The notes beneath the pieces were generated by a model. The model worked only from the letters and a program-made list of their open reading frames with translations, did not search any database and was not told the origin of the DNA. Made by a program: the position numbers and the translations under genes. From the NCBI GenBank assembly GCA_958296025.1, contig OY282430.1:2170001-2234000 (forward strand): a DNA stretch of 64,000 nt. The letters are read 5' to 3'. Position 1 is the first letter of the stretch; every line of letters begins with the position of its first letter. Source of the DNA: an uncultured Pseudomonadales bacterium (GTDB lineage Bacteria > Pseudomonadota > Gammaproteobacteria > Pseudomonadales > Azotimanducaceae). This document shows positions 42,362-53,082 of this stretch, piece after piece.

Positions 42362-42521
42362 GTGTCCTGTCCCGTAAATAAGCGCGCTTTGGATGCGAGG
42401 GATTTTTGGCTCCTGGCAAGGCGCGACAACGCCGTGTGGCAGGCTCCACACAAGGCGGAGCAACGCAGCCAGAAGCCCAAAAGACCCGTAGATAATGTGC
42501 GGTTATTTGCGGGACAGGCAC
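42362..42521. repeat. Intact copy of the MITE-like inverted-repeat element (160 bp)
   Basis: Tips GTGTCCTGTCCCGTAAATA (left) and GGTTATTTGCGGGACAGGCAC (right, one base short) are inverted complements. The interior shares more than 100 bases with 13271-13386 and 15031-15074, including TTTGGATGCGAGGGATTTTT. No ORF of its own, though the frame of the downstream metzincin gene opens inside it. Confidence 0.85.
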
Positions 42522-45050
42522 TATGTTGGAGCGGCTACAAATCATCCCCCAAACGACAGCCCGGCTACGCTGTTCCGCACCCGTTGCGGTTTCTTTGATC
42601 TTGGTGTTTGGAATCTTGGGGCAGCGACCTTGTTGTGCCTATCCCTAGACGAAGTTGGCCGGCGGCCGGGCTTGCTGCGGCGCACGGCGGGACCCTTGTT
42701 TTTGGTTGGCGCCCTGTTGGCCGGAAATGGTCGGGGCGCCGAGTCGCCGCCTAGCCTGTTCTCGCCCTTGGGTGCCGGTGGGGTCAGCGGCAGTGCGGCG
42801 TTGCGAATCGACGCCCCACGCATGGGTGCGCCGCGGCGGTTGGTGCGGGTCGAATGGGCACTGCTAGAACAGGCGCGGCACCTAGTCGAACTGCGTGGCG
42901 AAGCGGCCTTGCTGTTCAACCTTTCGGATGCCGCGGTCCTTCCAGTGATCTTCGAGCACAGTGCGCCCACCAAGTCGGGCTACTCGTTGGCCGGACGGGT
43001 TGCCGATGCGGCCGGCGGCCGGGTGGTGCTGGTGGTGAGTGGGGAGGTGTTGGCCGGTGTACTTTGGACGCCCCAAGCCAGCTACAGAATCCGCACCCGC
43101 GGGGCCGGTCTGCACAGCATTGAGCGGGTGGATGCAGCGGCCGCGCCGCCCTTGGCCAATCCTTGGATTCCCCCGCTTGAGCGCCGCGCCGCAGCAATCG
43201 AGGCGCAGGCGCAAGCGGAGGACGGCATGACGCAAATCGACGTGCTGATTCCTTGGACGCCGGCGGCGCGCAGATTGGTCGGCGGGCTGCGGCAAATGCA
43301 GGCCAAGGTGGATCTTTCGGTGGCCGTCGCCAATGACGCCTACGCCACCGGCGGCGTCGCCCAGCGCCTGCGGTTGGTGGGCGCTGCGGAAATAGATTAT
43401 GAGGACGCCACGATAGACGACATTGACCGCCTGCCGGTGGTGGATGATGGCTTCCTGGATGAGCTGCACGAACTCCGCGACAGCACCGCCGCCGACCTCG
43501 TCAGCCTGTTCGTCAAGTTTGAGGTGGGCGGCGTCGCCGCGCTGATGGCGGAACTGACGCCGGCCTTTGCACCCTTGGCCTTCAGCATGGTCGATGTGCG
43601 TGCGGCGGAGACCATTCTGGCCCATGAGCTTGGCCACAACATGGGCCTGCAGCATGATCGCTACGTCGTGCCCACCGACATTCCGCCGGACGTGAAGGTG
43701 GCGCTTTTTCCCTACAGCTTCGGCTATGTCAACCAGCGGGCGTTTGCTCGCGGCAGTCCGTGCTGGCACACCATCATGGCCTATCCCGACCAGTGCGATG
43801 ACGCCGGCCTTGCGCCTATGGGATTGCCGCGCTTCTCCAACCCGGACCAGAACTACCCGTCGGCGGACGGAGACCCGCTCGGTGTGCCGGTGGACCAGCC
43901 CGCCATCGGCTGGAACGGCCCGGCCCACGCGGTGCGCAGCCTCAACGAGGCCCGCCATGTGGTGGCCGGCTTCCGCGACGGGGCGGGCCGTTGCGCCTAC
44001 GCCCTGTCATCCGGAGAGGCCACTTTGCCGGCCAGCGGCGGTGCCTTCACCGTTCGCGTGGATACGAAAGAAGGCTGCCCTTGGACAGCGCATCACCAAA
44101 GCGGCTTCCTTAGCGTGGCGGCGGGCGGCGCCAACACTGGCGGCGCTGAGGTGACCTATCGAGCGCAGCCCAATGGCGGCTTGGCGAGGGCCGGAGTGGT
44201 GTCCATTGGCGGCGAGACCATTGCTGTGCGTCAGTTGGGGGCCGTGGCGCCGGCTTCGGTTTGCCGGCGCACAGAGGCGATCCGCGACGCCATTGCCGCG
44301 GCGCTGTCCAAGGACAGCTGTGCAGCAGTGACAGTGTGGGATTTGCGGGAGGTCACCGCCCTGTCCTTTTTGGGCCGGAACATCACCGCCCTGCGCCCCG
44401 ACGATTTCCAAGGCTTGGTCAATCTCTGGCGGTTGGAATTGAACGAGGCGATCACGGACCTTGCGCCCCTAGCCGGCCTGATCAATCTAGGGGAGCTTTC
44501 CCTAGTCGGCAACGGCGTCGCCGACCTTTCGCCCTTGGCGAACCTAGCCCAACTCGAATACCTAAGCCTGGACGACAACGCCATCGCCGACCTCGCCCCT
44601 CTCGCTGGCTTGACGAGGTTGCTCATCCTGTCCTTGTCCCGCAACCAGATCGAGGACTTGGCGCCGCTGGCCGGGTTGACTGATTTGCTGTCCCTGGACT
44701 TGACCGGCAACGCCATTTCCGACCTTTCGTCCTTGGCCGGCCTCGGCAACCTGTTCGTGCTGTTTTTGGGCAACAACCAGATCGCGGACGTTTCGTCCTT
44801 GGCCGGCCTGGACAACCTGTTCTTGTTGGGGCTTGCCGGCAACGCCATAGAGGACCTCTCGCCGCTGTTGGCCTTAAGCCAGCTAAGGCAACTGGACCTG
44901 CGCGGCAACCCGCTGAGCGATGCGGCGCTCGACACCCAGATTCCGGCGCTGCAGGCGCGCGGCGTGTTGGTGCTGTTCGACGAGCCGGATGCCCCTCCGC
45001 GCCGACCGTCTTGGTGGTGGCTTTTGCTGGACGGCTTGGCTAAACCCTGA
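42495..45050 (+). CDS. Secreted metzincin-type metalloprotease with BACON-like and leucine-rich repeats
   Basis: The frame has 851 codons. A signal peptide is visible at about residues 60-85 (GPLFLVGALLAGNGRGAE), so translation probably starts near TTG 42672 rather than in the repeat element at 42495. The protease domain has 'AHELGHNMGLQHD' (HExxHxxGxxHD) at about 378 and a Met-turn 'CWHTIMAYPD'. Residues about 495-585 look like a BACON beta-sandwich ('ALSSGEATLPASGGAFTVRV'). Residues about 600-830 are eight or so 22-residue leucine-rich repeats of the internalin/SDS22 type (LxxLxxLxLxxNxIxDLxPL). The C-terminus 'RRPSWWWLLLDG' could anchor it. Likely acts on host or environmental proteins. 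Confidence 0.88.
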   Translation: MCGYLRDRHYVGAATNHPPNDSPATLFRTRCGFFDLGVWNLGAATLLCLSLDEVGRRPGLLRRTAGPLFLVGALLAGNGRGAESPPSLFSPLGAGGVSGSAALRIDAPRMGAPRRLVRVEWALLEQARHLVELRGEAALLFNLSDAAVLPVIFEHSAPTKSGYSLAGRVADAAGGRVVLVVSGEVLAGVLWTPQASYRIRTRGAGLHSIERVDAAAAPPLANPWIPPLERRAAAIEAQAQAEDGMTQIDVLIPWTPAARRLVGGLRQMQAKVDLSVAVANDAYATGGVAQRLRLVGAAEIDYEDATIDDIDRLPVVDDGFLDELHELRDSTAADLVSLFVKFEVGGVAALMAELTPAFAPLAFSMVDVRAAETILAHELGHNMGLQHDRYVVPTDIPPDVKVALFPYSFGYVNQRAFARGSPCWHTIMAYPDQCDDAGLAPMGLPRFSNPDQNYPSADGDPLGVPVDQPAIGWNGPAHAVRSLNEARHVVAGFRDGAGRCAYALSSGEATLPASGGAFTVRVDTKEGCPWTAHHQSGFLSVAAGGANTGGAEVTYRAQPNGGLARAGVVSIGGETIAVRQLGAVAPASVCRRTEAIRDAIAAALSKDSCAAVTVWDLREVTALSFLGRNITALRPDDFQGLVNLWRLELNEAITDLAPLAGLINLGELSLVGNGVADLSPLANLAQLEYLSLDDNAIADLAPLAGLTRLLILSLSRNQIEDLAPLAGLTDLLSLDLTGNAISDLSSLAGLGNLFVLFLGNNQIADVSSLAGLDNLFLLGLAGNAIEDLSPLLALSQLRQLDLRGNPLSDAALDTQIPALQARGVLVLFDEPDAPPRRPSWWWLLLDGLAKP

Positions 45051-46114: not shown

Positions 46115-46506
46115 CCAATCCTCAAAGGCACCTTTTGCCTATGAGGACTGTTGAGACAAAATTGCGCGGCCGAAAGTTGGGGCTGCGGTATCGATGGAAG
46201 GGAACTCAAGCCGGGTGGCCCATGCCCCTAGCTGGCTGCTAGACTGCGCCTATTTGCCGACAGGGGGAAGAATGAAAGCAGAGGACGAAATCAAGCAAGG
46301 GTTGGATAAGGTTCTTGGCATTATGACGACGCGAAGGGTTGTTATCGGCGCCTTGGCGGTCATGGCGTTTTTCGTGCTGAGTGCTTTATTGTCAGACGTT
46401 GAAAGTGGGCCTCAACAAGCAGCAGTTCTCATTTTGGGTGTTGTTCGCGGCTCCGGTCGAGTTCGTGGTGTTCGGTTGATGTCGGGTTGGGAGTGGGACG
46501 CGGAGT

Positions 46507-47796
46507 TCAGGGCGGCTGGGCGGCGGTACCGCCGGTAGCGAGCAGTGACAGGAGGTTGTTCCAGTCGGGGAACAGCCGGTATTCGGTGACGGTTCGCAGG
46601 TGTTCGAACAATCGGCGCCGGGTGCCGAGGCGCCGGCGGGCGCTCTGCCAGAGCGTCTCGGCGAGTTCGCAGGCGCTGTGGAGCGAGAAGGCGAGCAGGT
46701 TGAGGACGACCAGCACGCCGGCGAGGGTGTCGTTGCCGTGGCCGAAGTTGTGTTTGAGGTGGTAACCGTGCTGCTTGAGGACGTTGAAGGTCTCGTTCTC
46801 GATCTTCCATCGGGCGCGGGCGCAGTCGGCGAGTTCGGCGACGTTGTCGCGGTCGACGTCGAGGCTGGTGACGAAGGTGCCGCGGTGGGTGACGGTGCCG
46901 TCGGGTCGCGCGCTGGTGATCTCGAGCCAGTTGACGCGCAGGGCGTCGTCGCCGTCGCGGATGGGCAGGTCGGTCATCCACCGGTAGCGGTGGATGCGCC
47001 GGCGGGCGCCGGCGCCGGCGGTGGCGCGGCGGGTGGGCGGGCGGATGCCGTCGAGGTGCTCGCAGAGGGTCTTGTGGCTGGCCGGCTTGGCGGTGAGCAG
47101 GAAGTCGCCGCCGCTGTCGAGCATCGCCCGGCAGACGGGCTGGCAGGCGTACAGGTCGTCGCCCAGGTAGACGGGGCGCAGTGGCGCGCAGCGGGTTCCG
47201 TGGCGTTGCAGCCAGCGCTTGGCCGCCTCGCGTTCGCAGTCCTGCTTGGCGGCGCCGTCGCGGGGCGCCACGAACTCCGGGGGCAGCGGCAGCGTGCGGG
47301 CGTGGCCGGGCGCCACCAGGGTGGCGGCCAGCATCTGGTGGAAGTGCTCCGTGGCGCCGTCGCTGCGCTTGCGGGTCGCGCAGTGCGGGCAGTGGATGCT
47401 GCGCGAGCGGAAGAACTCCGTGCCGTCCAGGGCGACGAGCAGCCGGCCGTCCAGGCGGCGCATGGATGCCAGGGCGCCGTGCGCGTCGAGGTCCGCGGCG
47501 ATGGCGTGGAACTCGTCGTCGAAGTGCGCCGTCGGCACGCCGTCGAGCAGTTGCCGGATGTGGTTGTCGCAGGGGATGCGGGCCAGGCCGAACAGCGTGT
47601 GCGCGTTGGACCGCGTGCGTCCCTCGGCCAGCGCGCGCTGATGCGCCAGGAACGACGGCGACTGCATGAAGAACACCGACAGCGCCGCCATGGCGACGTC
47701 CGCCATGGCGTACCGGCGGTTGCGGCCGCGACGCGGGTCCGGCAGCCCGGCGAAGCACGCCCGGAGCCGTTCCAGATGGCCGCCGAGGAGCTTCAC
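46507..47796 (-). CDS. DDE transposase (ISNCY-like) of the methyltransferase-carrying element
   Basis: A 429-residue transposase. 'RLLVALDGTEFFRSRSIHCPHC' (first D, followed by a CxxC), 'PVYLGDDLYACQPV' (second D) and 'RARWKIENETFNVLKQHGYHLKHNFGHG' (E) mark a DDE_Tnp_1-type core; 'KQDCEREAAKRWLQRHG' is a further conserved stretch. It starts at GTG 47796 within the stop of the methyltransferase gene (GTGA overlap). Longer frames to 48282 are antisense-shadow extensions over the methyltransferase. The sequence is intact. Confidence 0.88.
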   Translation of the reverse strand: MKLLGGHLERLRACFAGLPDPRRGRNRRYAMADVAMAALSVFFMQSPSFLAHQRALAEGRTRSNAHTLFGLARIPCDNHIRQLLDGVPTAHFDDEFHAIAADLDAHGALASMRRLDGRLLVALDGTEFFRSRSIHCPHCATRKRSDGATEHFHQMLAATLVAPGHARTLPLPPEFVAPRDGAAKQDCEREAAKRWLQRHGTRCAPLRPVYLGDDLYACQPVCRAMLDSGGDFLLTAKPASHKTLCEHLDGIRPPTRRATAGAGARRRIHRYRWMTDLPIRDGDDALRVNWLEITSARPDGTVTHRGTFVTSLDVDRDNVAELADCARARWKIENETFNVLKQHGYHLKHNFGHGNDTLAGVLVVLNLLAFSLHSACELAETLWQSARRRLGTRRRLFEHLRTVTEYRLFPDWNNLLSLLATGGTAAQPP

Positions 47797-48467
47797 GGCG
47801 GCGCCTGCGCTTCCACTGCCATGACCGCGGCCAGCACCGCCAGGCGCTCCGCCGGAGGCATCGCCCGGTAGCGCCGGCCCCAGCTCGCCGCCTTGCGCTT
47901 GACCGTCTGCCGGTGCGTGAAGTCCCGCCCCGCGCACGACGCCCAGTGCACCCGGTCCGGTTCGAAGTTGAACCACACCTTCTCGGTGACCACGCCCGCC
48001 TGGTTCATCACCTGCAGCGCCACGCTGCGCCAACCGCAAAGCAGCTCGTCGTAGAGCGCCGACGGGTACCCCGACACCATCACCGCGCACGGCAGCCCCT
48101 TGAGCAGTTCCAGCAGCGCCGCGTGGTCCGCGTCCCCGTAGTCGTGCCGGTAACGGCGCCCGGACTTGCGCGCCGCGCGCAGGTACGGCGGGTCGCTGTA
48201 GACCAGCTCCGAACCGTCGAACGCGAAATCGGCCAGATACCCGTGGCAGTCCGCGTTGACCAGTTCCACCGCATGGCCGCACTCGAATGACGACAGCGCC
48301 CGCGCGTCCAGGTCGATCCCGATGTTGCGCAGCGCCGCCGGCTTGCGCTTCATCACCGCGCCCCCGCCCAAGTGCGTCTCAATGTACACCGCGTGCGGCG
48401 GCATCAGCGCGACCAGCGCCTGCCACAGCCCCGACGACGCCTTCGATCCGAACCACGGGTTGCCCAT
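47793..48467 (-). CDS. D12-class (Dam-like) N6-adenine DNA methyltransferase
   Basis: A 224-residue protein with the D12 order: 'GNPWFGSKASSG' (AdoMet-contacting N-terminus), 'YIETHLGGGAVMKRK' (motif I region) and 'LVYSDPPYLRA' (DPPY, motif IV), then 'HAALLELLKGLPCAVMVSGYPS'. It should methylate adenine at an unknown DNA target. ATG 48467 is favoured because the promoter at 48475-48503 would start transcription about there, giving a leaderless mRNA; ATGs at 48479 and 48485 lie in the promoter. It lies inside an insertion sequence and is coupled to the transposase. Confidence 0.88.
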   Translation of the reverse strand: MGNPWFGSKASSGLWQALVALMPPHAVYIETHLGGGAVMKRKPAALRNIGIDLDARALSSFECGHAVELVNADCHGYLADFAFDGSELVYSDPPYLRAARKSGRRYRHDYGDADHAALLELLKGLPCAVMVSGYPSALYDELLCGWRSVALQVMNQAGVVTEKVWFNFEPDRVHWASCAGRDFTHRQTVKRKAASWGRRYRAMPPAERLAVLAAVMAVEAQAPP

Positions 48468-48474
48468 GGCCCGC

Positions 48475-48503
48475 ACCATAGGCACAACGTCCTATGCTGT
48501 CAA
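48475..48503 (-). promoter_or_regulatory. Sigma-70-type promoter inside the insertion sequence
   Basis: Reverse strand TTGACA (48498-48503), a 17-bp spacer, and TATGGT (48475-48480). It points toward the methyltransferase and transposase, with the expected start site at the methyltransferase ATG. Confidence 0.65.
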
Positions 48504-48637
48504 GCCTCCCTCAATCCGGCGCTATGTAAAAATGCCAAAATGAGAACTGCTGCTCAACAAGCTTTCCAGTGGATTCAGATGTGCTTTTGGGTGATCCTGC
48601 CTTATTGCGTGGCTAGGCTCATCCTTCAGCTACTCAA

Positions 48638-48958
48638 ATGAGACTGCTATTCGCTGCGGCCTTGGCGCTGGCTTCGGCTTGGGCGCTTGGTCAAGACGAA
48701 CAGGCTGAAGCCATCAATGATTTCCATAAGGGTGCGGCCCTCTTGCTCGAAACCTTTGCCTGCAGGACGCAAGGCGCTGTTTTGTGCGGCCATGAGCATG
48801 AGGGGACGGAAACGCTTATGTGGTCACAGGCCTGCCGAATGGCCGCCATGCAGCGGGACTTGGGCCAAGGTTACGATGGGGATTCGGAGTTGGTCGGCAA
48901 GTACATGGATGCGGTCCTGTTTTGGGATCAGTATTGCGATGCCCATCCCGAATACTAG
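48638..48958 (+). CDS. Small secreted protein of unknown function
   Basis: A 106-residue protein with a signal peptide (MRLLFAAALALASAWALG, cleavage about residue 18) and four cysteines in the mature part (FACRTQ, VLCGHE, QACRMA, QYCDAH) that could form two disulfides. Its start overlaps the stop of the split membrane-protein gene, so the insertion may have altered its expression. Family not recognised. Confidence 0.6.
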   Translation: MRLLFAAALALASAWALGQDEQAEAINDFHKGAALLLETFACRTQGAVLCGHEHEGTETLMWSQACRMAAMQRDLGQGYDGDSELVGKYMDAVLFWDQYCDAHPEY

Positions 48959-50586: not shown

Positions 50587-53082
50587 ATGGAAGTCGGAGC
50601 ATTCATACGCCAGAGCCGGATTGAGCTTGGTTTGTCCTTACGCGGTGTGGCGCAGCGGCTTGATCTGGATGTGGCGTACCTTTCGCGCATTGAGAGTGGG
50701 CAGGTTCCGCCATCGGCGCAGATACTGGGAAAACTGGCGGATTTGCTCGGCTGCAGCGGGGACGGGTTGCTGCTTCTCTCTGGACGGCTCCCGGAGCGGA
50801 TTCGGGCGTTGGTCTCGCGTCAGCCAGAGAAGGCTGCGGCTGCGTTGACGACCATGGCCGAGCTGTGCTTGGCGGACTCAGGTTCGGCCGCTGGTGCGGC
50901 GCTGGTTGCGGGGCACGGTCGGCGTGTGATCGAAGATCGCTTCCCGTTCGAGCAGCTGAGCGAGGTTGCGGAAATCGAAAGCTGGCGGAAGGAGCTGTAT
51001 CGGCCCATCTACCACATGCACAAGTGGTGGGCGCAACGATTGGGATCGGTCTTTCGGGCAGCGATCATTGCGGCTGCCGCCCCGAAGGGCTCATCGGTGA
51101 TGGACCTTTTCTACGAACCTGTGCGGCTACCGGGGCTAGTGGTTTTTGACCCCTTCATGGGCAGCGGCACCACGGTGGGCGAAGCGCAGAAGCTCGGCTG
51201 CACGGTCATTGGCCGTGACATCAATCCGGTGGCGCATCGAGCGGTTCGGGTTGCTCTCGGCGAGATCAGCCGAACCGAGGTCCAAGCCCAATTCAAGCGG
51301 ATTGAGACAAGCGCCGGGCGCGAAATTAGGTGCCTATATCAATCCACTGACGGTGACGGACAGCCCTGTGAGGTACTCTACTTCTTTTGGGTTAAATTCC
51401 TGCCTTGTCCTCAATGCGGGGGTGCCGTCGATCTTTTTTCCAGCTACATCATCGCTTCCCACGCGAACAAAGCCCGGCATCCTCAGGCAAGGGCGTTCTG
51501 CCCTAACTGCGGCGCACTGCCTGTGTGTCGTTACGACGCAACATCCGTAAGTTGCTCATGCGGTGCCAAATTTGATCCTCGAAATGGTCCCGCCCGACGG
51601 ACAACCGCCGTTTGCGGGGGCTGCGCCCATGAATTCCCGATCGCGAAGACTGCCGCAAGCGCCGGTGGCCCGCCGAGCCATCGGCTTTACGCCAAGCTCG
51701 TCCTTAGAGCTGACGGCGGCAAGGAGTATCTGCCGGCGACGACGGACGATGTGCAGGCTTTTGATGCGGCCCGTGAGCGTCTGGTGAAAATCAGTCCACC
51801 GATTCCTTCCACACCAATAGAGGACGGGCACAACACCAAGCAGATTCTTAACTATGGCTACCGCTACTGGCACGAACTGTTCAACGCACGTCAACTTCTC
51901 GCCCTCACCACCTTGGCGACCTCGATCAGAGACTTGCCCGATGGTGGTGCCCGCGATGCGCTGTCGCTACTCTTTTCGGGGGTCTTGGAGTTCAATAACA
52001 TGTTCGCCTCCTACAAGGGCGAAGGAACAGGTGCCGTGCGCCATATGTTTTCCCATCACATCCTGAAACCAGAACGAACGCCCATCGAAGCGAACCTGTG
52101 GGGCACTGCCAAGAGCTCCGGCGCATTCTCAACGCTTTACAAAAGCCGACTGCTTCGAGCTTTAGCGTATCGAGAAGCTCCGTTCGAGATTTCTGTGGAA
52201 TACAAAGGCAAGCGGAAGTCAGGCCGAAAGGTCTTTGGCGCAAGTTCGCCTATGGGAGGCGAGGTGCTGGACGGGCTGCCAAAACACGCCCCAAAGGCCG
52301 GCACCACTTACGTTTCCTGCGGTGATTCGGCGAGAACTAGCCTTGCCGACCAAAGCGTGGACCTCGTTGTGACCGATCCACCGTTCTTTGACAACGTTCA
52401 CTACTCAGAACTAGCGGACTTCTTTTTCGCTTGGCAGCAGACCTACTTCTTTCTGGGCGTCGGTCAGCATACAACCAGACGTGCGGAGGAAGTGCAGGAC
52501 ACAGATGTTCGCATGTTTGCTAAGAAGTTGAGGATGGTTTTCACGGAGTGCAATCGGGTCCTTCGGGACAGAGGGCTAATGGTGTTCAGCTACCACCATT
52601 CCAGGGAAAGCGGGTGGACCGCCTTGGCGGAAGCTGTAGTTGGCGCAGGGTTTTCAATCATTCAATCCCAACCTGCGAAATCGGAGATGTCGGTGGCGGC
52701 ACCCAAAAGCCAAGCCAAGCAACCCATCAATCTGGACGTGCTGATCGTTTGCCGTAAGCGGCAAATGGACCGGCGTGAGCGCAAAGCCGAAAAGGCCGCG
52801 TTTGCGGCGTCTCAGGAGTCGGGGGCGGATCAGGTTCGGCGATTTAATGCAGTCGGCAGAAAGCTGTCACGCAATGACGTGCGAGTTGTGCTCTTGAGTC
52901 AATTGCTGGTTGAGTTGTGCGCGGATAGAAACGTCGATGACGTTCGAATGAGTTTGGATATGCTCCTCCCGAGAATGGATCGAGTAACCGAGGACATTTG
53001 GTGCGCTCAGACTATCCGGGAGTCACCGGAGCAATTGACGTCGATAGGTGGGGCCAAACAGCTTTCCATGCTTGAGACATAG
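50587..53082 (+). CDS. XRE-HTH/zinc-finger/DNA methyltransferase fusion
   Basis: An 831-residue protein. Residues about 1-60 are an XRE helix-turn-helix ('FIRQSRIELGLSLRGVAQRLDLDVAYLSRIESG'). Residues about 135-160 resemble DUF1156-type methylases ('YRPIYHMHKWWAQRLGSVFRAAI'). Motif I is 'FDPFMGSGTTVGEAQKLG' (about 188), an inserted zinc-finger region has CPQC, CPNC, CSC and CGGC pairs (about 275-345), and motif IV is 'LVVTDPPFFDNVHYSELADFF' (about 594). DPPF suggests N6-adenine or N4-cytosine modification. Control and modification in one chain is unusual. It converges with a nuclease-like gene, stops 1 bp apart. Confidence 0.85.
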   Translation: MEVGAFIRQSRIELGLSLRGVAQRLDLDVAYLSRIESGQVPPSAQILGKLADLLGCSGDGLLLLSGRLPERIRALVSRQPEKAAAALTTMAELCLADSGSAAGAALVAGHGRRVIEDRFPFEQLSEVAEIESWRKELYRPIYHMHKWWAQRLGSVFRAAIIAAAAPKGSSVMDLFYEPVRLPGLVVFDPFMGSGTTVGEAQKLGCTVIGRDINPVAHRAVRVALGEISRTEVQAQFKRIETSAGREIRCLYQSTDGDGQPCEVLYFFWVKFLPCPQCGGAVDLFSSYIIASHANKARHPQARAFCPNCGALPVCRYDATSVSCSCGAKFDPRNGPARRTTAVCGGCAHEFPIAKTAASAGGPPSHRLYAKLVLRADGGKEYLPATTDDVQAFDAARERLVKISPPIPSTPIEDGHNTKQILNYGYRYWHELFNARQLLALTTLATSIRDLPDGGARDALSLLFSGVLEFNNMFASYKGEGTGAVRHMFSHHILKPERTPIEANLWGTAKSSGAFSTLYKSRLLRALAYREAPFEISVEYKGKRKSGRKVFGASSPMGGEVLDGLPKHAPKAGTTYVSCGDSARTSLADQSVDLVVTDPPFFDNVHYSELADFFFAWQQTYFFLGVGQHTTRRAEEVQDTDVRMFAKKLRMVFTECNRVLRDRGLMVFSYHHSRESGWTALAEAVVGAGFSIIQSQPAKSEMSVAAPKSQAKQPINLDVLIVCRKRQMDRRERKAEKAAFAASQESGADQVRRFNAVGRKLSRNDVRVVLLSQLLVELCADRNVDDVRMSLDMLLPRMDRVTEDIWCAQTIRESPEQLTSIGGAKQLSMLET

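Follow-up and report, generated by a model that had tools for sequence, protein, structure and literature searches.

The 64,000-nucleotide stretch analysed here (the window; positions 2,170,001 to 2,234,000 of contig OY282430.1, GenBank assembly GCA_958296025.1, from an uncultured Pseudomonadales bacterium) carries an insertion sequence (IS) whose transposase gene is the second gene of an operon led by a gene for a Dam-like adenine methyltransferase. The same methyltransferase clade precedes three other types of transposase, and a pair of inverted half-sites in its promoter suggests how the putative enzyme might control itself and, with it, the transposase. The locus has the following features (window positions throughout; G and L handles denote genomes and loci).

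46411-46419, no strand: left copy of the 9-bp target duplication, CTCAACAAG.
46420-48552, minus strand: insertion sequence of 2133 bp, 7 copies in the genome.
46420-46437, plus strand: 18-bp terminal repeat at the transposase end, CAGCAGTTCTCATTTTGG.
46507-47796, minus strand: gene for a DDE transposase, GTG start, 429 aa, with weak DDE_Tnp_1_assoc and DDE_Tnp_1 matches.
47793-47796, minus strand: 4-base GTGA overlap of the methyltransferase stop and the transposase start.
47793-48467, minus strand: gene for a D12/Dam-like adenine methyltransferase, ATG start, 224 aa, DPPY motif intact; a longer frame begins at GTG 48485.
48475-48503, minus strand: promoter TTGACA-N17-TATGGT, with -35 at 48503-48498 and -10 at 48480-48475.
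48477-48496, minus strand: dyad CATAG-N10-CTATG, between -35 and -10 and reaching over -10, a candidate operator or methylation target.
48522-48526, minus strand: third CATAG, between the terminal repeat and the promoter; the element has no other CATAG or CTATG.
48535-48552, minus strand: 18-bp terminal repeat at the methyltransferase end, CAGCAGTTCTCATTTTGG inverted.
48553-48561, no strand: right copy of the 9-bp target duplication, CTCAACAAG.

An earlier sequence-only reading of the locus had described perfect 18-bp inverted repeats enclosed by a 9-bp target duplication, and both were confirmed at 46420-48552 and in all seven full copies in the genome of the window. Since the copies share identical ends and each has a private 9-bp duplication (7/7), the boundaries of the element are not due to chance. 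Six copies are 2133 bp long, one of them that of the window, from which the other five are 0-3 substitutions away; the seventh (L006) is 1 nt shorter (2132 bp), which breaks its transposase frame. The genome search for the two-gene unit between the 18-bp ends that had been suggested returned the methyltransferase in 7 of 7 copies, with its frame intact in each. With terminal inverted repeats, a target duplication, a transposase and several copies, the element is an insertion sequence, and a recently active one. A related element is present in a genome of the same genus (G006; methyltransferase 87% and transposase 82% identical), and two G006-like contigs (L045 and L046) stop inside the element; their flanks differ, and the terminus that follows is of the same kind, CAGCAATTCTCATTATGG.

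If the element and one duplication are deleted in silico, an open frame runs across the insertion site. The interrupted frame is short and membrane-protein-like (46272-46419 plus 48562-48641, 75 aa with the flanks joined). The proposed hunt for empty sites found none in 8 congeners when 400 bases of the right flank were used as query; this flank matched G005 only from query base 69 onward, and the 75-aa frame spanning the site had no counterpart in the two G005 loci tested.

The two leftward genes overlapping by GTGA were borne out (methyltransferase 48485/48467-47793, transposase 47796-46507). The transposase scores below the Pfam cut-offs for DDE_Tnp_1_assoc (26.3 bits vs 32.3), a domain that we take to be linked to ISAs1, and for DDE_Tnp_1 (19.9 vs 23), which leaves it outside the ISAs1 type as defined by the curated score of the former; a plasmid protein 37% identical to it is annotated ISNCY. 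The methyltransferase is likewise below the thresholds of the Dam family (TIGR00571, 25.3 bits, NCBIfam cut-off 114.85) and of the D12 class (Pfam MethyltransfD12, 17.1 bits, cut-off 22), and it matches phage DNA methyltransferases well (phrog_56, E value 2.4e-23). It is called Dam-like because the best fold match in the PDB to its AlphaFold model (mean pLDDT, the predicted local distance difference test score, 80.5) is Escherichia coli Dam (E value 3.9e-7, template modelling score 0.53 by query, root-mean-square deviation 6.0) and because DPPY is present. A single-sequence search of solved structures gave nothing useful. In comparison with Dam, the region from motif II to motif IV, which holds the target recognition domain, is short, and in the model the C-terminus forms two long helices (residues 189-208 and 211-227). 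Residues 1-13 are modelled as unstructured at low confidence and the catalytic domain follows, which differs from the methyltransferases fused to a helix-turn-helix. The two genes occupy 46507-48485 of 46420-48552, and no restriction endonuclease partner was seen in the element, whose opposite-strand frames were listed and not searched in family libraries; the pair is thus not classed as a restriction-modification system. The host genome has another D12 methyltransferase (68.4 bits).

The promoter noticed near the right end, TTGACA-N17-TATGGT, is present at 48503-48475. The idea that it gives a near-leaderless mRNA stands with a corrected start: GTG 48485 sits upstream of the -10, so the usable start is ATG 48467 (224 aa), 7 nt past it. 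CATAG/CTATG occurs in the element 27, 57 and 72 positions from the methyltransferase end; the total of 3 is close to the 1.7 expected by composition, and the placing alone is notable. With one mismatch tolerated, the combination of promoter and dyad has a single match in the window and none in 100 shuffles. GATC lies 105, 235, 1632 and 1749 positions from the methyltransferase end; neither the ends nor the promoter contain it.

The methyltransferase is supported as a fixed part of the mobile unit. Among 97 genomes scanned for the transposase, that of the window included, 10 had a match. Immediately upstream of each of the close transposases (in G000, G006 and, decayed, G007 and G004; identity by piece 57-100%) lies the methyltransferase, and G001 holds a C-terminal transposase remnant (67-75%) with neither methyltransferase nor transposase N-terminus within the stretch examined. 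At the fetched transposase loci of about 43% identity or less the methyltransferase is missing. One such cousin (G044, 37% identity) occurs in simple elements about 1657 bp long, whose ends start CAG and which lack a methyltransferase; four of five copies examined have exact 9-bp duplications, and the fifth matches at 8 of 9 bases. The association is therefore specific to a clade. The sequence-only reading had named two contrary cases: relatives of the transposase that share its ends but never have the methyltransferase, a case approached only by distant cousins (G044), and methyltransferase homologues beside a transposase that lacks terminal repeats, which were not seen.

The methyltransferase was also searched for in its own right, in overlapping sets drawn from the class (369 genomes, 17 with a match at E up to 1e-3), the order (390, 6 at E up to 1e-20), the phylum (398, 5) and the relatives of G341 (95, 3); the first three sets include the genome of the window, and short partial matches of G290 and G354 are outside all counts. 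Four types of transposase were found downstream of the clade and co-directional with it: ISNCY-like (this element), IS66, IS701-like and IS4/IS50. The idea that this element alone acquired the gene is thereby rejected. IS66 partners are found at G328 L048 (E value 3.8e-40), at the decayed L040 (4.2e-20) and L107 (6.5e-12) and, by tblastn, at L066 and the decayed L044. The G341 partner is IS701-like (NCBIfam IS701_3, E value 5.4e-44, 150.7 bits vs a cut-off of 170; Pfam DDE_5), and that of G333 belongs to IS4 and includes a Tn5 dimerisation domain (E value 6.8e-71, above cut-off). Across 18 IS-clade loci (the 16 of the tree described below plus L044 and L055), 14 have a co-directional transposase or its remnant downstream, L041 being counted on a weak match only; at L043, L073 and L077 the contig ends before the downstream gene. 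At L042 no downstream transposase was found with four reference transposases, the L041 frame or the L107 frame as queries. The L041 downstream frame matches IS66 weakly and under the cut-off (E value 0.0054), making that label tentative, and no convincing counterpart of it turned up in L042 or in the five other IS66-linked loci tried.

The geometry recurs with the partners. With start codons assumed, stop and start overlap by 4 bases here and at L041 and are separated by 8 nt at L107, 18 nt at L092 and L066, and about 56 nt in G341, and an example of each of the four types has both genes between terminal repeats. G341 holds nine close methyltransferase copies and a divergent tenth. Seven fetched regions share a unit of about 2678 bp that ends in CTCAAGAGTCCCGAGTTCTCG, matching the other end at 19 of 21 bases (18 in some copies); exact 7-bp duplications flank three of the seven, and two copies apparently swapped flanks. 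The terminal repeat of G328 (L092) is GTAACTGCTCACCC, and G333 (L094) has a perfect 22-bp repeat with ends that fit the IS50 consensus printed in the excerpt of PMC2266710. G215 (L096) is a deletion derivative in which the methyltransferase start is fused to an IS66 end. No clear target duplication was found at L092, L094 or L096. Two further observations concern G341. In its tenth copy, L107, the partner of the methyltransferase is a decayed IS66 transposase, so that the module occurs with two families of transposase in a single genome. Its elements (L086) have some 500 bp between one end and the methyltransferase, with a possible small antisense frame seen by eye, a candidate second passenger.

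In a maximum-likelihood tree of 33 rows, from which the short fragments L044, L054 and L055 and the viral-contig homologues were excluded, all 16 methyltransferases linked to insertion sequences fall together (100/99; recovered in 100% of 200 bootstrap trees), separate from the plasmid, phage and chromosomal rows sampled (8 of 178 plasmid records, 1 of 83 phage records). Within this group the IS66-linked rows are scattered over several places. L041 is the neighbour of the nested ISNCY-type rows (100/96), G328 joins the IS701-like rows (87/81) and G009 joins the IS4 row (98/90). Four types of partner inside one clade imply at least three changes of partner. The nearest relatives seen outside insertion sequences are genes of plasmids (matches in 178 records, of which 130 are typed as conjugative) and of phages (83 records).

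The promoter dyad was followed in 16 IS regions (14 of them used for 5-mer counts), 23 non-IS regions and 43 viral homologues, the last being what remained of the 80 best of 444 loci after removal of 37 near-duplicates. Upstream of IS-linked genes the usual layout is TTGACA, one base, CRTAG, ten bases and CTAYG, with the second arm over the -10. When 15 IS-clade promoters are aligned without gaps (L022, lacking its first two bases, was excluded), 88% of the half-site cells pair, compared with 21-60% for slid partners. The covariation score, with A-T, G-C and C-G forms at one pair, is reached in 7 of 500 shuffles, and the number of cells changed on both sides in 16 of 500. Strict CRTAG-N10-CTAYG occurs 7 times in the 107,676 bases of the 16 IS-clade loci, always at the methyltransferase promoter, and was not found upstream in five loci of methyltransferase-less cousins.

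The dyad is common beyond insertion sequences. CATAG/CTATG is found 17 times upstream in the 14 IS regions (4.0 expected; present in 9) and 27 times in the 23 non-IS regions (5.4 expected; present in 9). A perfect 5-bp dyad with a 10-base gap lies upstream in 7 of 16 IS loci vs inside genes in 3 of 16 (letter-shuffled mean 1.7, highest 7 of 2000 shuffles), and the corresponding non-IS counts are 14 and 6 of 23 (mean 2.8, highest 9). CATCG-N10-CGATG takes up this register in many non-IS promoters, as judged in part from an alignment of 9 of the 23, picked for that register. In the independent viral set the dyad is upstream in 17 of 43 vs inside the gene in 9 of 43 (shuffled mean 4.4, highest 11 of 300). 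Five non-IS loci (L078, L079, L115, L122 and L123) have several CATAG/CTATG sites upstream, like multi-site regulatory regions, and the most enriched 5-mer of the 23 non-IS regions is GGCCA (35 vs 8.3 expected).

These results lead us to propose, with a probability of about one half, that the methyltransferase represses its own promoter and thereby sets the expression of the transposase. The gene moves with its own promoter, in which the inverted half-sites CATAG...CTATG lie between -35 and -10 and overlap the -10; the putative enzyme would repress by methylating the half-sites or by binding them. Through the overlapping stop and start codons the output of transposase would track that of methyltransferase. 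In a naive cell, or briefly after replication, an open promoter would allow transposase to be made; once the promoter was methylated or bound, the element would fall quiet. Action of the methyltransferase on its own promoter is the best account of the dyad because the dyad is common to the family on transposons, plasmids, phages and chromosomes, with no regulator gene noticed in common among the dyad neighbourhoods in the annotated regions opened. A self-repressing module would also explain why four types of transposon carry the same module in the same place. The earlier suggestion that methylation controls transposition is in this respect plausible, because the gene order is the same with other types of transposase and the promoter dyad is conserved; its companion, that the element marks its own ends, is not supported, as discussed below. 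A wider claim, which we hold tentatively and think rather doubtful, is that the methyltransferase gene and its dyad promoter form a portable cassette for epigenetic control that has joined four kinds of transposase, in which self-methylation at the two half-sites of the operon's promoter would give a burst of transposition on entry and a replication-linked window for it, independent of host Dam.

Several findings weigh against self-repression or the generality of the module. The strict dyad is present in just 7 of 16 IS-clade loci, and its first arm has decayed in L040, L042 and L044. The perfect dyad of L042 is a different repeat, which lowers the IS count to 6 of 16, when shuffles reach 7 at most; the number of pairs changed on both sides, 2, is reached in 306 of 500 shuffles; and because the second arm reaches into the -10, its conservation is partly that of the promoter. 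The perfect dyad is absent in 9 of 23 non-IS regions, and just 11 of the 17 dyads printed for the viral set are CATAG or CACAG. In viral contigs, 16 of 21 exact matches to promoter plus dyad in the CATAG form have no adjoining methyltransferase of the family; the other 5 lie 37-41 nt before one, four of them with an identical dyad sequence. For the CATCG form the figures are 77 without and 3 with among 80 examined of 114. A role of the dyad as a unique signature of the methyltransferase is accordingly rejected, most exact viral-contig matches lying elsewhere. No helix-turn-helix family of Pfam matches the methyltransferase at E up to 1. As to the partners, the types other than IS66 are represented by one lineage each, and the IS4 case (G333) is broken, its transposase lacking the N-terminal part and its methyltransferase frameshifted.

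The dyad of the plasmid and phage relatives also bears on a different explanation, that the gene is anti-restriction or host-benefit cargo whose product would shield element-bearing DNA from restriction and play no role in transposition. Orphan methyltransferases of plasmids and phages may protect in this way, the nearest non-IS relatives are such genes, and in the annotated regions opened (L128 is unannotated) none is followed directly by a transposase gene. Because these relatives share the promoter dyad, it did not arise for transposition. Cargo of this kind leaves unexplained both the repeated co-directional placement directly upstream of four types of transposase and the overlapping stop and start codons, and we regard it as unlikely, with some chance of being right. 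In a recurring neighbourhood of the plasmid relatives (L119, L120 and L125), an 8-oxoguanine glycosylase or hypothetical gene follows the methyltransferase and a 7-cyano-7-deazaguanine synthase gene is nearby.

The overlapping or closely spaced stop and start codons, and the promoter that moves with the gene, would suit a mere expression device, in which the upstream gene provides a promoter and a translational coupling that keeps transposase low, catalysis being incidental. Conservation of the protein speaks against this. DPPY is invariant in 13 of 13 aligned members, and among 35 its D, first P and Y are invariant and the second P nearly so; the ratio of nonsynonymous to synonymous substitution rates (dN/dS), taken from G000 and G006, is 0.22 in the methyltransferase against 0.44 in the transposase, so that in this single pair of genomes the methyltransferase appears to be under the stronger constraint. 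The expression device is accordingly a poor candidate. Methylation of sites at the transposon ends, tuning the binding of transposase, is very improbable: the 2133-bp element has all three of its CATAG/CTATG sites no more than 76 bp from the methyltransferase end, one of them beside the right terminal repeat, but neither 18-bp repeat contains the motif (on which ground marking of the ends is rejected), the transposase end has none, and the G341 element lacks CATAG and has its two CTATG internally.

Self-repression by the methyltransferase has counterparts in known systems. According to the part of PMC9296519 that treats them, IS10, IS50 and IS903 are repressed by host Dam, which confines transposase to the period following replication. 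The likeness lies in adenine methylation of a transposase promoter as a brake, with a post-replication window; the difference is that Dam is a host enzyme, whereas here the element supplies a Dam-like enzyme of its own and lacks GATC in its ends and promoter. Methyltransferases control promoters by methylation in CfrBI, AhdI and LlaDII, the promoter being that of their own gene in the latter two, and binding of an operator by methyltransferases fused to a helix-turn-helix is a second known route (PMC12707154, section 10). The element resembles CfrBI, AhdI and LlaDII in the putative control of a promoter by a methyltransferase, and in particular LlaDII-like autoregulation in that paired sites are present in the methyltransferase's own promoter. 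It differs in that no restriction enzyme gene was seen in it and the downstream gene is for a transposase; methylation of the promoter is here a proposal.

The upf31.0 gene of IncP plasmids, termed a methylase in the excerpt of PMC6266692, encodes a homologous enzyme (42% identity over query residues 5-226 for pAOVO02) behind a dyad of the same geometry, CATCG-N10-CGATG, but as a plasmid gene without a transposase. Toxin-antitoxin pairs in Tn3 modules are likewise passengers so positioned that their control may reach the transposition genes, as described in a portion of PMC7157771; the type of gene and the transposons differ.

Carriage of an extra gene between IS ends is shared with the transporter insertion sequences. 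A 2014 review by Siguier and others is said to list methyltransferases among IS passengers. In the available portions of PMC3129680 and PMC2266710 the passengers named are regulatory, resistance, virulence, metabolic or of unknown function, with no adenine methyltransferase among them. The excerpt of PMC3627910 (2013) states that, to its authors' knowledge, transposon-borne methyltransferases were previously unreported; the virus-borne Mariner elements that it describes carry a methyltransferase as well, but belong to viruses of eukaryotes and have an endonuclease as third protein. No bacterial insertion sequence with an adenine methyltransferase operon-linked to its transposase was found in a literature search that relied mostly on titles and the start of abstracts and left subscription journals largely outside, and among the papers listed in a search for a published methylation motif none contains CATAG.

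Methylation control of bacterial transposition is known as host Dam acting on the element. An element with its own adenine methyltransferase, in an operon with the transposase and behind conserved paired promoter sites, would, if the proposal is true, practise self-regulation of the Dam kind. The recurrence of the module with four types of transposase, together with seven fresh copies in one genome, makes the question directly testable.

Two neighbouring genes of the window may be mentioned. An 831-aa frame 2 kb from the insertion sequence (50587-53082) combines an N-terminal helix-turn-helix (Pfam HTH_31, E value 1e-12) with an N6/N4 DNA methylase domain (N6_N4_Mtase, E value 6.2e-14, in two stretches). 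The protein encoded on the other side, at 42495-45050 (851 aa), has a reprolysin-like metallopeptidase domain and, after it, leucine-rich repeats.

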